From positions 1 to 34,992 of the forward strand of contig JAKDUG010000004.1 in the NCBI GenBank assembly GCA_030457805.1: 34,992 bases of DNA, written 5' to 3'. The stretch's first letter is position 1. Each line of letters begins with the position of its first letter. A model generated the notes under the pieces. It did no database searches and was not told where the DNA came from. It saw nothing but the letters and a program-made list of their open reading frames with translations. This document shows, piece by piece, positions 19,446 through 24,658 of the stretch. This DNA is from Psychroflexus sp. (GTDB lineage: Bacteria; Bacteroidota; Bacteroidia; Flavobacteriales; Flavobacteriaceae). The translations under genes and the position numbers were made by a program.

Positions 19446-21293
19446 TTATTCTACTGTGACTGATTTTGCTAAATTTCGCGGTTGATCAACATTTTTTCCG
19501 AGCATGACAGCAATGTGATACGACAATAATTGTAGTGGTATTGTCGTCAACAATGGAGTGAATTCTTCAAATGTATCTGGCACCTCTAAGATATGATCTG
19601 CCATTTGCTTAACAGAGGTATCACCTTCAGTGACAACAGCTATGATTTTTCCTTTTCTCGATTTGATTTCTTGAATATTGCTGACCACTTTTTCATAGTG
19701 CCCTTTTTTCGTGGCAATAACAACAACTGGCATCATTTCATCAATCAAAGCAATCGGACCGTGTTTCATCTCTGCAGCTGGGTATCCTTCTGCATGGATG
19801 TATGAGATTTCTTTGAGCTTCAATGCGCCTTCTAAAGCAACAGGGAAGTTATGTCCACGTCCTAAGTACAAACAGTTTTTTGCTTTTTTGTAAGCTTCTG
19901 CAACTTTGATGACCGCGTCATTTGTTTGAAGTGTTCTCTCAATTTTTTCTGGAATTGAGTCCAATTCATTTAGGTAGGCATGAAATTGAGAATTTGAAAT
20001 TTCTCCTTTTTGCTTTCCTAGTTTAAGAGCGATCAAAGTTAATATAGTGATTTGTGTCGTAAATGCTTTTGTCGAGGCAACGCCAATTTCTGGTCCCGCA
20101 TGTGTGTATGCACCTGCGTGAGTTTCTCTAGAAATAGATGAACCAACGACATTACAAACACCAAAAACAAAAGCGCCTTTTTCTTTAGCAATTTTAATTG
20201 CCGCCATTGTATCCGCTGTTTCTCCACTTTGAGAAATTGCGATAACGACATCATCCTCTGTGATGATTGGGTTGCGATATCTGAATTCAGAAGCGTATTC
20301 AACTTCGACTGGGATTCTAGCAAAATCTTCAAATAAATATTCTGAGACGAGCCCAGCATGCCATGATGTTCCGCAAGCAATGACAATAATGCGTCTTGCA
20401 TTGAGGAATTTTTCAATATTATCATCAATACCAGCCATACGGATGAGTCCTTTTTCAGGAAGCATACGTCCGCGGTAGGTATCTTTAATGGCTTCGGGTT
20501 GTTCGTAAATTTCTTTCAGCATAAAATGCTCATAACCCGCTTTTTCAATCTGGTCAAGGCTTAATTGGAGTTCTTGAACATAAGGCTCAATTAATTTATC
20601 ATTTTTGATTTTTCGCACTTTAATATTTCGCCCTAATCTGACAACGGCCATTTCACCATCTTCAAGATAAATAGATTTATTTGTAAACTCGATAAAAGGA
20701 GAAGCATCAGAAGCGATGAAGTATTCATCTTCTCCTACACCTATAGCCAATGGGCTTCCTAGTCGAGCAACAACGATTTCATTGGGTTTATTTCTGTCAA
20801 AAACAGCAATTGCGTATGCGCCAATAGTTTGGTTTAAAGCCACCTGAACGGCCTTGCCAAGCTTGACGTTTTCTTTTTTCTTAACATCTTCAATCAAGTT
20901 AATTAAAACTTCTGTGTCAGTATCTGATTCAAAAGAATAGCCTCTATTGGTGAGTTCTTTTTTAAGTGATTCATAATTTTCAATGATCCCGTTATGGATG
21001 ATAACAAGATCACCTGAGTTGGAAACATGCGGATGCGAGTTGACATCGTTAGGCTCTCCGTGTGTTGCCCAGCGTGTATGTCCGATTCCGATATGTCCAG
21101 AGGTGATATTTTCTTTTTCACATTTCTTAACGAGCTCTGAAACTTTTCCTTTTGTTTTGCAAATTTTCAATTCATCATCTGCGTATAGTGCGACTCCTGC
21201 ACTATCATAGCCTCTGTATTCGAGTCTTTGTAGGCCTTTTAAAACGACATTATAGGCGTTTTTAGGTCCGATGTATCCTACGATTCCACACAT
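19446..21293 (-). CDS. glmS: Glutamine-fructose-6-phosphate aminotransferase (isomerizing)
   Basis: Makes glucosamine-6-phosphate from fructose-6-phosphate and glutamine, the entry to peptidoglycan and LPS amino sugars. The glutaminase domain (about 1-220) opens with MCGIVGYIG, Cys2 being the nucleophile after Met removal, and has HTRWATHGEPNDVNSHPH. Two SIS sugar-isomerase domains follow (about 290-420 and 465-600), and the C-terminus ends AKSVTVE as in known GlmS. 615 aa is full length. It is the third gene of a unit after the GT5-like and DUF4270 genes (19-nt gap). I see no glmS ribozyme in the short upstream gap. Confidence 0.96.
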   Translation of the reverse strand: MCGIVGYIGPKNAYNVVLKGLQRLEYRGYDSAGVALYADDELKICKTKGKVSELVKKCEKENITSGHIGIGHTRWATHGEPNDVNSHPHVSNSGDLVIIHNGIIENYESLKKELTNRGYSFESDTDTEVLINLIEDVKKKENVKLGKAVQVALNQTIGAYAIAVFDRNKPNEIVVARLGSPLAIGVGEDEYFIASDASPFIEFTNKSIYLEDGEMAVVRLGRNIKVRKIKNDKLIEPYVQELQLSLDQIEKAGYEHFMLKEIYEQPEAIKDTYRGRMLPEKGLIRMAGIDDNIEKFLNARRIIVIACGTSWHAGLVSEYLFEDFARIPVEVEYASEFRYRNPIITEDDVVIAISQSGETADTMAAIKIAKEKGAFVFGVCNVVGSSISRETHAGAYTHAGPEIGVASTKAFTTQITILTLIALKLGKQKGEISNSQFHAYLNELDSIPEKIERTLQTNDAVIKVAEAYKKAKNCLYLGRGHNFPVALEGALKLKEISYIHAEGYPAAEMKHGPIALIDEMMPVVVIATKKGHYEKVVSNIQEIKSRKGKIIAVVTEGDTSVKQMADHILEVPDTFEEFTPLLTTIPLQLLSYHIAVMLGKNVDQPRNLAKSVTVE

Positions 21294-21312: not shown

Positions 21313-22878
21313 TTAATTTTCTGTTTCTGTATAGATGATTCTTAGTTTCATTCTTTTCTGCTCATCTGGTGAGTTACTTCCGTGAAGGACAGTTCCTCTT
21401 GGTGTGATGACAGAGCTTTCGATGACTTTACTGATTTCTGATGGATCGTCATTCTTTACTTTTTTGGTCTTTGTTAAGTTGACGTTTTCTGAAAGTAAAA
21501 GCCCTAATTTTACGTTTGTTGAATCATTATTGATCACATTGTGAATGTGGTTGGTGATACGCAATCTGTAAAATTTATTGCCATTATCATCTTCATCTAA
21601 AGGAGGAAGGTGAATGAAAGCCGAGTTTGTCGGATTGTTTTCATTGACTGATGGGTCATTTAGGTAGTCTGGTAAAATCCTGTTATCGTCAGCATTGTAG
21701 ATAAAAAGACGCTTGACGATATTTTGATCAGTGGAAGCAATATCATCATTGACATAAAGAATCAAATTCGCTTCGTTAATGATCCAATTTTTTTCACGTA
21801 ATTCTTCAAGTTGATCAGAAACACCATCGTTATTTGAATCTGGTCCTGAGAAGAGATTGATGATTCCTGCCGAACCTTCTCCGCCTTTCAAGTAGAGGTT
21901 TTCTTCGCCATTTGTCTTGTCTTGATTAGATAAGTCGACGCCGAAATCATTGTCATATAAGTTAACTTTGATGCCTTGGAAGTTCAGCTTGAAACTTTCG
22001 TGTTTTTCATTGCTTTCATCGCCGTCGTCAGTGCTGTTATTTTCACGCTCTGTTGTGTAATGGATCTTTATTTCAGTCGCATCAGTGGCAAAGTTTAAAT
22101 AAAACATGATTGGGTCAGGGCCCACTTGTTCCATTTGGAAATATAAACCTCTGAGGTGGTTGATAAAATTATTGTTATTCACAAGAACATTGTTGCCTGC
22201 TTGGTCAATAATCTTATCTTGAAAATAAGCCTTTGGTAGTTTAATACGAATACGCGGCGACATTCTGATGGTGTCAACCTCAGATTTGCTACTATCAATC
22301 AGTGTAATTGGTGAAATGACTTCATCATAAGTGATAACGTCAGATTCAAAAAGAGGTGTTGACTCAAAGAAATTTTCAAACTCACCTATTTGATCTGAAT
22401 AGTAAGCTTGATTTTGATCGAACTCACCATCATCACCCGGGTCTAAATTCCTGAGGTAATAGTTTGATTCATAGATCTTCATTTTAAAATCTCCTTCACC
22501 ATAAATGGAATCGAGTTCATAAGTGTCTTCCTCGATTTTACGACCAAATAAAGGAAAAGATAGCACCACACTATCGACCTCTGGATTGGTTCCGAAATCA
22601 GGATTTGTACTTCCTAAGCTCAATTGTGTCAGTAGACTGGTCGTGCTTTTACCATAAATAGGATCGTCATAATTTCCTAATAGGTAATTTGACAATCCGT
22701 TCGTTTGAACAGCTCCTATTTTCTCGCTATATGAAGTGACTTCGTCAATTTCATAAGCGGGTTGTAGATCAATGCTGTCGATGTAATCACTTCCAGTTTC
22801 AAAGGTGTTGTCTTGGCAGGCTGTCATTGCAATGATAAAACCGAATAAGCCAAGCGTGTTTTTTAATAATCTATTCAT
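21313..22878 (-). CDS. DUF4270 family lipoprotein
   Basis: Large surface or periplasmic lipoprotein of unknown function typical of Bacteroidota. From the ATG at 22878 the protein has 521 aa and a lipoprotein signal, MNRLLKNTLGLFGFIIAMTAC, with the lipid-anchored Cys at residue 21. The ORF-track start at 22908 overlaps the previous gene and adds a charged KKKKNKRTR leader; the 22878 start lies one base after the upstream stop. The body is beta-rich with many Asp/Asn, including VDSVVLSFPLF and a calcium-binding-like loop DSNNDGVSD (about residue 347), resembling thrombospondin-type-3 or dockerin loops. It lies between the GT5-like gene and glmS. Its job is unknown; a link to envelope polysaccharide is only suggested by context. 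Confidence 0.85.
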   Translation of the reverse strand: MNRLLKNTLGLFGFIIAMTACQDNTFETGSDYIDSIDLQPAYEIDEVTSYSEKIGAVQTNGLSNYLLGNYDDPIYGKSTTSLLTQLSLGSTNPDFGTNPEVDSVVLSFPLFGRKIEEDTYELDSIYGEGDFKMKIYESNYYLRNLDPGDDGEFDQNQAYYSDQIGEFENFFESTPLFESDVITYDEVISPITLIDSSKSEVDTIRMSPRIRIKLPKAYFQDKIIDQAGNNVLVNNNNFINHLRGLYFQMEQVGPDPIMFYLNFATDATEIKIHYTTERENNSTDDGDESNEKHESFKLNFQGIKVNLYDNDFGVDLSNQDKTNGEENLYLKGGEGSAGIINLFSGPDSNNDGVSDQLEELREKNWIINEANLILYVNDDIASTDQNIVKRLFIYNADDNRILPDYLNDPSVNENNPTNSAFIHLPPLDEDDNGNKFYRLRITNHIHNVINNDSTNVKLGLLLSENVNLTKTKKVKNDDPSEISKVIESSVITPRGTVLHGSNSPDEQKRMKLRIIYTETEN

Positions 22879-22879
22879 T

Positions 22880-23713
22880 CTAGTCCTCTTGTTCTTCTTC
22901 TTCTTCATTTAAAATATCTTTCAAGTAGAAAGTTTGGTAGGCTTGTGCAAAAGCTTCACGTGACTTGTATTCTAAAGTTGGCACATCTTTGTCAGCGACA
23001 TAAGAAACCAATTCTTCTGGGACATCCTCACTGCCGTAAATGATTCCGTCAGAGTTGTCAATTGCCACTTTCATGATATTGACATAATTTGGCGTCTTGA
23101 GGTGCATCACGGTGTCGTCTTCTAAACCATCGAACAAAACCTTCTTCATCATGTCAGGCTCTAACGCACCATCAAAACTTTGATTGTACACAGATGTCAC
23201 AATTTTTGATTCTTTGAACAACGGTTCGTTCCCGTAGTAATTACGTAAATACATTGGGAGAAGGGAAGCTAACCACCCGTTGACATGTATAATATCAGGT
23301 GCCCAGTTTAGTTTTTTGACTGTTTCAATAACGCCTTTTGCAAAGAAAATAGCGCGTTCGTCATTGTCTTCAAAAAGTTCACCATCTTCGTCAGTTAGTG
23401 TTGCTTTGCGTTTGAAATAATCTTCGTTATCAATAAAATAAACTTGCATTCTTTCCTTTGGAATTGATGCAACTTTAATGATCAAAGGCATATCAAGGTC
23501 GTTGACAACAAGATTCATACCTGATAAGCGGATCACTTCATGAAGTTGATGTCTTCTTTCGTTGATGTTTCCAAATCGTGGCATAAATATTCTTGTTTGA
23601 CCACCTGCAGCATTGACCATTTTTGGAGCTTCAAATGATAAAGAAGAAATGTTGTTTTCTGGTAAATACGGAACAACCTCAGACGATACGTATAATATGC
23701 GTTTATCTTTCAT
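22880..23713 (-). CDS. Truncated GT5-type starch/glycogen synthase-like protein
   Basis: 277 aa related to the N-terminal half of bacterial glycogen synthase (about 480 aa). Visible similarities: start RILYVSSEVVPYL, DDERAIFFAKGVIE-like segment, WAPDIIHVNGWLASLLPMYL and SKIVTSVYNQSFDG. The ADP-glucose-binding KTGGLGDV loop of true synthases is replaced by PENNISSLSFEAPK, and the whole C-terminal Rossmann domain is missing. The protein ends in an acidic tail (NEEEEEQED) and the next gene starts one base later, so there is no decayed remnant. Either it is a non-catalytic or regulatory derivative or it acts with a partner. It leads the unit with DUF4270 and glmS and is divergent from panC. Annotating it as glycogen synthase would be misleading. 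Confidence 0.85.
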   Translation of the reverse strand: MKDKRILYVSSEVVPYLPENNISSLSFEAPKMVNAAGGQTRIFMPRFGNINERRHQLHEVIRLSGMNLVVNDLDMPLIIKVASIPKERMQVYFIDNEDYFKRKATLTDEDGELFEDNDERAIFFAKGVIETVKKLNWAPDIIHVNGWLASLLPMYLRNYYGNEPLFKESKIVTSVYNQSFDGALEPDMMKKVLFDGLEDDTVMHLKTPNYVNIMKVAIDNSDGIIYGSEDVPEELVSYVADKDVPTLEYKSREAFAQAYQTFYLKDILNEEEEEQED

Positions 23714-23742: not shown

Positions 23743-23750
23743 CAAATTTA
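23743..23750 (-). promoter_or_regulatory. Promoter -7 element of the GT5-DUF4270-glmS unit
   Basis: Reads TAAATTTG on the minus strand, an exact TAnnTTTG match, ending 30 nt before the ATG. It faces away from the panC promoter across a 99-bp divergent gap. Confidence 0.57.
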
Positions 23751-23781: not shown

Positions 23782-23789
23782 TAGCTTTG
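23782..23789 (+). promoter_or_regulatory. Promoter -7 element of the panC-radA unit
   Basis: TAGCTTTG is an exact TAnnTTTG match ending 24 nt before the GTG start of panC, which supports that start. Confidence 0.6.
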
Positions 23790-23812: not shown

Positions 23813-24658
23813 GTGGATATAACAGACTCACAAAAACTTCAAAAAGAAGTTGTTAAGCTCAAGGAGCAGAAAAAAATCATCGGTTTAGTGCCAACTATGG
23901 GCGCTTTGCATCACGGACACTTAACTTTAGTTGATTTTGCTTTTCAATATTGCGACTATGTGATTGTCAGTATTTTTGTAAATCCGACACAGTTTAATAA
24001 CGCGGGAGATCTTAAAAATTACCCAAAAAACCACCAAAGCGACTACGATTTGCTGATGAGCAACAATCCGAACACGATTGTTTTCAGCCCAAGTGTCGAG
24101 GGCATTTACGGCAATCAAGTCCAAGCTGAAGAATTCGATTTTGGAAGTATTGTTCAATATATGGAGGGACAATTTCGCTCCGGACATTTCAATGGTGTGG
24201 GCACAATTTTGAAGCACCTTTTTGATATTGTTAAGCCGCATAAAGCTTTTTTTGGTGAAAAAGATTATCAACAATTGGCTTTGGTTAAGAAGTTAGTTCA
24301 AATCACAGGTCAGGATGTTGAAGTGATTGGTTGTCCAACATCAAGGACAGCAAGTGGTTTGGCAGAAAGCTCTCGTAATTTTAGATTGACAGAAAAGCAA
24401 TTAGATGAGGCTGCCCTGATTCATTTAAGTTTGCAAAAAGCGAAAGCTGCTTTTCATGCTGAGAAAGATATTCAGGAAATTAAAACAATTGTTAAATCAC
24501 TTTTTGATGCGAGTCAAGGTCTTGATTTAGAGTATTTTGAAATTGCTGCTGCAGATGATTTGGTTCCAGTCACACAAATAAAGAGTGACAATTCCTACCG
24601 TGGTTTTATGGCTGCTTTTTCTGGAGATGTTAGACTAATTGATAATATTGCTTTTTAA
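23813..24658 (+). CDS. panC: Pantothenate synthetase (pantoate-beta-alanine ligase)
   Basis: Joins pantoate and beta-alanine with ATP to make pantothenate, the coenzyme A precursor. Nucleotidyltransferase motif [18 protein letters not shown] (about residues 26-43) carries the HxGH-type site. [44 protein letters not shown] and AESSRNFRL (second ATP-binding motif) follow. 281 aa is full length. The start is GTG at 23813, supported by the promoter spacing and family length. panD lies 8 nt downstream, so two steps of the pathway are together. Confidence 0.95.

Follow-up and report, generated by a model that had tools for sequence, protein, structure and literature searches.

The 34,992-nt window analysed here, the whole of the stretch taken from Psychroflexus sp. 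contig JAKDUG010000004.1, carries on its minus strand an open frame running from ATG to TAG that encodes a protein of 277 residues, which we refer to as GT5L (Table 1). The original prediction named a DUF4270 lipoprotein and glmS as the operon partners of this gene, and both lie on its downstream side, the DUF4270 gene directly and glmS after it; the DUF4270 product is not a generic lipoprotein and corresponds to BamH. The one-base interval described between the GT5L stop and the next gene holds for a bamH ATG at 22878, whereas an in-frame ATG at 22908 would give a 29-nt overlap, so that the start at 22878 is provisional. The 99-bp gap between GT5L and panC contains one -7-like element (TAnnTTTG) for each direction, TAAATTTG at 23750-23743 (minus) on the GT5L side and TAGCTTTG at 23782-23789 (plus) on the panC side.

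Table 1. Features of the GT5L locus, in window coordinates; residue numbers refer to GT5L
Feature	Position	Strand	Basis
GT5L, 277-aa GT5 N-domain-only protein, pseudo-glycosyltransferase	22880..23713	-	ORF, Pfam, family, residue loss, AlphaFold2 model
bamH (DUF4270), BAM canopy lipoprotein; alternative in-frame start 22908	21313..22878	-	PF14092 E=1.2e-72; NF053686 BamH_fj E=1.1e-159
glmS, 3′ of bamH, linkage confined to Bacteroidia	19446..21293	-	ORF identified from sequence; synteny
panC, divergent neighbour of GT5L	23813..24658	+	Divergent in 79/80 Flavobacteriaceae and 38/40 other Bacteroidia loci
Bacteroidota -7-like element TAAATTTG, 30 nt 5′ of GT5L start	23743..23750	-	Consensus match only
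Residues 18-21 (PENN) in place of KTGG nucleotide loop	23651..23662	-	Alignment
Residues 48-63, G-N-I-N-E-R-R-H-Q-L-H-E-V-I-R-L, lineage signature motif	23525..23572	-	Alignment of lineage vs unlinked GlgA
Residues 143-147 HVNGW (E. coli GlgA: HAHDW; D137 -> G146)	23273..23287	-	Alignment
Y176 in place of acceptor-site His (E. coli H161)	23186..23188	-	Y in 41/47, H in 0/47 Bacteroidia sequences
C-terminal helix, residues 252-267, like the crossing tail helix of full-length GT5	22913..22960	-	Suggestive

GT5L belongs to the GT5 superfamily both by sequence and by fold, in agreement with the prediction that the N-terminal GT5 fold is retained. The Pfam Glyco_transf_5 profile (PF08323) matches over positions 1-226 of 239 with E=6e-48 (164 bits vs a cut-off of 22.7), and is the sole Pfam match, with none for a second domain. 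The nearest solved structures by sequence are GT5 synthases (1rzu, E=4e-6), and the nearest PDB folds to the AlphaFold2 model, built from 36 relatives (mean pLDDT 82, pTM 0.87), are likewise bacterial GT5 synthases (1rzu, E=3.1e-12, TMq 0.67; Foldseek). None of the curated NCBIfam equivalog cut-offs for glycogen synthase is reached, by a wide margin, the best scores being 168.8 bits for NF010698 (cut-off 754) and 108.7 for TIGR02095 (cut-off 328). The sequence contains no signal peptide or other export signal and its first β-strand begins at residue 5, which suggests a cytoplasmic location.

For the catalytic residues we use E. coli GlgA numbering and an assignment that we take to be established for GT5 enzymes. 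The KTGGLADV loop of the synthases reads PENNISSL in GT5L, the equivalents of K15, G17, G18, D21, D137 and H161 are all lost, and the domain bearing R300, K305 and E377 is absent. The protein thus has neither the two-domain GT-B architecture nor the KTGGL(A/G)DV loop and catalytic His/Asp of a functional GlgA. The same holds for the truncated Bacteroidia proteins as a group, where K15 is found in 2/47 and G17, G18 and H161 in 0/47, D21 and D137 are nearly always gone, and the domain that would bear R300, K305 and E377 is missing altogether. Replacement of the KTGG loop and loss of synthase function, with the protein repurposed, are both borne out, and we state with high confidence that GT5L is not a glycogen synthase. 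That it is non-catalytic is well supported by the residues and the domain that are gone, and inactivity would also be expected in vitro. The reported absence of the C-terminal Rossmann domain stands in so far as no second domain is matched, and may need one refinement. The C-terminal helix is similar to the tail helix (SAxxYxxLY) of full-length GT5 enzymes and scores ∼9 SD above shuffled sequences, with the best match lying elsewhere in half of the sequences, and this is suggestive of an internal excision in which the tail helix was retained.

The genome of the host was searched for the remaining components of glycogen synthesis. GT5L is its sole GT5; no GT3 glycogen synthase was found, and no glgC scored above the cut-off (best 23 bits vs 425). 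A glycogen role was rejected on these grounds. It might be argued that GT5L remains an active glycosyltransferase, alone or split with a separate C-terminal domain protein (cf. Alg13/Alg14), since it keeps the fold and some of the acceptor side. This is very unlikely: no residue with a known part in ADP-glucose handling remains, the host has no other synthase, and no stand-alone glycosyltransferase C-domain gene occurs in its genome, where PF00534 matches all lie in ORFs of 362-427 aa. On the latter finding the split arrangement was rejected.

Sequence profile searches (E<=1e-25) detected exactly one copy of the GT5L family in 127 of 129 Bacteroidia genomes, always truncated, the open frames measuring 256-336 codons. 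In 15 of those 127 a full-length GT5 (473-514 codons) is present as well, and the truncated protein is the sole GT5 in most of the others. Identity among Flavobacteriaceae homologues is 65-80%, and dN/dS among close relatives is 0.02-0.07, values that are rough, being computed from stop-to-stop frames, and that are lower than those of panC in every pair computable for both. GT5L is thus under strong purifying selection. The loss of catalytic residues and of a domain might in itself bring to mind a decaying remnant without function, an explanation whose likelihood, as far as sequence can tell, is next to nil in view of this retention, identity and constraint. A recent pseudogene was rejected on the conservation and the dN/dS values, and the description of the short form as a settled architecture is upheld.

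The position of the gene is also conserved. Of the 124 Bacteroidia genomes that have both genes, 117 carry GT5L directly 5′ of DUF4270/bamH and in the same orientation, as judged from the coordinates of separate GT5L and DUF4270 searches. GT5L is present in every one of the 124 Bacteroidia genomes in which DUF4270 was found (124/124); loss of the gene from relatives that keep DUF4270, named in advance as an observation that would speak against a repurposed protein, is not seen. Two Bacteroidia loci, L142 (G007) and L143 (G002), carry the gene beside panC with no adjoining bamH and represent natural exceptions. In the host genome bamG lies elsewhere (L213:1-3536, contig C108), between a TPR gene and a coaX-like type III pantothenate kinase gene, the latter identified from sequence; a TPR gene is also found 3′ of bamG in L153, L154 and L168. 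Since the bamH locus is divergent to panC-panD, both bam loci of the host neighbour CoA-synthesis genes.

Linkage to bamH extends beyond Bacteroidia (the names of other classes used here are presumptive). Non-Bacteroidia genomes carry a GT5 of the same lineage that is either truncated (open frames of 257-325 aa) or full-length (about 490-560 aa), in the gene order GT5-bamH-bamG for the truncated and GT5-(gmhB)-bamH-bamG for the full-length form, while separate GlgA paralogues are never linked to bamH/bamG in this way. An HMM trained on Bacteroidia BamH only, with specificity checked by gene position, was run on 4175 ORFs of non-Bacteroidia loci; 35 matches reached E<=2, spread over 35 of the 38 lineage loci. 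Each lay 3′ of a truncated or full-length GT5 gene and shared its strand, within 600 bp in 33 cases, at 1.4 kb in one and with an overlap in one (frames taken stop to stop); 23 control loci (unlinked GlgA, Chlorobia-type GT5 and E. coli) gave 0 matches. These BamH-like genes mostly score below the Pfam DUF4270 model, and those of L161, L162, L166 and L155 are weak in the BamH HMM itself. BamG follows bamH directly in 11/11 loci tested with NF053685 (E 1e-37 to 1e-76) and in 33 of the 38 lineage loci with our own HMM.

The third gene of the Bacteroidia cluster behaves differently. It was proposed that the protein regulates GlmS, which as a sugar-sensing control of GlmS or amino-sugar flux would accord with the presence of glmS 3′ of bamH (79/80 loci in Flavobacteriaceae, 31/40 in the other Bacteroidia), with retention of a sugar-binding fold, and with the adjoining gmhB (an LPS heptose enzyme) in other classes. 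However, glmS is clustered in 0/38 lineage loci outside Bacteroidia (one weak similarity, on the opposite strand, in L186), where the lineage GT5 and bamH are both present, and neither the ADP-sugar loop nor its domain is retained. A primary partnership with GlmS is therefore discarded, and a regulatory role towards it appears unlikely. The wider part of that proposal, an envelope context instead of glycogen, is supported.

A GmhB-type heptose-bisphosphate phosphatase gene often lies between GT5 and bamH in the full-length loci; a gmhB-like gene is found directly 3′ of the full-length GT5 in L172-L182, L188 and L193-L197, and Chlorobia-type loci keep GT5-gmhB with bamH absent. The ancestral order was probably GT5-gmhB-bamH-bamG. 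Eighty-five N-domains were placed in a quick maximum-likelihood tree with unlinked GlgA, that of E. coli among them, as the root. All 44 truncated rows fall into a single clade (SH-aLRT 100) that sits within the linked full-length GT5 and Chlorobia-type sequences, and the whole bamH-linked lineage stands apart from unlinked GlgA (SH-aLRT 98). A single truncation event suffices for all truncated proteins, and the GT5-bamH pairing is older than the truncation. Since the pairing predates the shortening, GT5L probably has its task in the envelope rather than in glycogen storage. GT5L itself falls within this lineage in the tree, carries its signature motif and has bamH directly downstream.

Loss of catalytic residues has also taken place in full-length members of the lineage. 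These are mostly intact; the exceptions are L189, which has lost most catalytic residues, and L184 and L179, which have lost part of the loop. The residues are intact in 18/18 unlinked GlgA, so that decay is repeated in bamH-linked GT5 and not in unlinked copies. What catalytic and non-catalytic members share is the motif (E/D)R(R/K)xx(L/I)HxxxRL, which is absent from ordinary GlgA and predates the loss of catalysis and of the second domain. H58, R62 and L63 are found in 100% of 90 lineage sequences vs 0-17% of 18 unlinked GlgA, R53 in all but one of the 90 (Lys in L183), and Q90, R41, G48 and N96 show the same lineage-restricted conservation. These positions centre on the signature loop, the strongest candidate for a functional site in GT5L. 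Residues 51-60 have low pLDDT in the AlphaFold2 model, which would suit a loop that becomes ordered upon binding.

Taken together, we consider with moderate confidence (a probability of roughly 0.5) that GT5L is a cytoplasmic pseudo-glycosyltransferase that serves envelope/BAM biogenesis by binding a ligand or a partner. Early in the phylum, the ancestor would have been a two-domain GT5 enzyme encoded at the head of an operon with bamH, bamG and, in many cases, gmhB. Loss of the nucleotide-sugar domain and loop would have occurred in an ancestor shared by Bacteroidia and some other classes, leaving the front half of the fold, in which the lineage loop was already present. Binding of a cytosolic ligand or protein partner through the signature loop and the old acceptor face may then tune co-expressed outer-membrane biogenesis, either of the BAM canopy or of envelope sugars. 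Operons can persist without functional coupling, and some Bacteroidia (G002, G007) keep the gene without an adjoining bamH; both points count against such a role. A more far-reaching and more tentative reading is that GT5L is a near-universal, ancient member of a phylum-specific outer-membrane assembly programme (GT5-bamH-bamG), in which the loop that predates the loss of catalysis could couple construction of the BAM canopy to the status of sugars or precursors in the cytosol.

The extracellular canopy of the Bacteroidota BAM complex includes BamH and BamG (PMC12611786, PMC12578637); both are required for BAM function in F. johnsoniae (PMC12611786), and BamH is important, not essential, in B. 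thetaiotaomicron (PMC12611786, PMC12578637). A subunit of the complex would be expected to be exported and to co-purify with BamA. The cryo-EM preparations are not reported to contain a GT5L orthologue as a BAM subunit (PMC12611786, PMC12578637), and since GT5L also has no export signal it is unlikely to be a structural component. Direct contact with BamH or BamG is unlikely as well, because the mature proteins reside in or outside the outer membrane. These considerations also suit an alternative, in which GT5L does housekeeping work of another kind and stays beside bamH/bamG only because of the benefit of a shared promoter or of translational coupling through abutting or overlapping start codons. 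The short or overlapping junction with bamH would fit such hitchhiking, as would the conserved panC/panD side, which has no obvious functional relation. Nevertheless, the linkage outlives both catalysis and half of the protein across classes, while gmhB, glmS and panC vary, a pattern that would be unusual for a hitchhiker, and we regard this alternative as less likely. A strongly conserved cytosolic protein encoded beside bam genes may well be a factor that lay beyond the reach of the structures.

Several earlier records appear to concern the same family. The promoter of fjoh_0824, directly before bamH (fjoh_0823), has been used for inducible expression in F. johnsoniae (PMC12611786), and by synteny fjoh_0824 would be the GT5L orthologue. 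In B. thetaiotaomicron the locus tags of the pair adjoin, BT_4307 lying next to BT_4306 (BamH). Neither ‘glycogen’ nor ‘glycosyltransferase’ occurs in the two BAM papers (PMC12611786, PMC12578637). A 2024 review mentions a ‘fragment of GlgA-GT5’ in one sentence and gives no function, linkage, phylogeny or residue analysis; that fragment and the publicly annotated ‘glycogen synthase’ (e.g. BT_4307) very probably belong to the family of GT5L. BT_4307 has been cited as evidence for glycogen storage (PMC10797578), which the missing catalytic parts do not support. It is also listed in a table of proteins enriched with a vitamin B12 probe (PMC8941943), a kind of list that can include abundant proteins; vitamin B12 binding was considered as a lead only, and nothing in the GT5L sequence suggests a cobalamin site. 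The main texts of two transposon papers (PMC3547785, PMC4072883), searched for essentiality, do not name a GT5L orthologue. The open-access main texts searched describe neither the linkage GT5-bamH-bamG and how old it is, nor the repeated decay of catalytic residues, nor the signature loop; no activity assay, ligand or deletion phenotype for the family came to light there either. Our results imply that a gene labelled ‘glycogen synthase’ in very many Bacteroidota, gut commensals included, very probably makes no glycogen. The gene is constantly accompanied by bamH and, in classes other than Bacteroidia, also by bamG; the two encode core parts, described in 2025, of a BAM complex unique to the group.

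With bacterial GlgA (CAZy GT5; 1RZU, 2QZS) GT5L shares a homologous N-terminal Rossmann-like domain, and differs in having no C-terminal domain, in the loss or absence of KTGG, D137, H161, R300, K305 and E377, and in being linked to bamH instead of glg genes. The full-length bamH-linked GT5 proteins (L176-L189) are of the same lineage and have the same signature motif and bamH-bamG neighbours, but are two-domain proteins with mostly intact catalytic residues. The Chlorobia-type ‘starch synthase’ (PRK14098/NF010698) resembles GT5L in the signature motif and the lost KTGG loop; unlike GT5L it has two domains, adjoins gmhB with no bamH within reach, and keeps E377 and H161 while R300 and K305 are lost. 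In L193-L197 (genomes G048, G063, G106, G165 and G010) the GT5 is the sole one of its genome (10/10 checked for this family code) and scores above the NF010698 cut-off, yet is without K15, G17, G18, R300 and K305, so that this equivalog may describe a non-canonical or inactive enzyme. BamH and BamG, finally, are gene neighbours and probable operon partners of GT5L that are outer-membrane or surface proteins, whereas GT5L has no export signal and is not reported in the complex.
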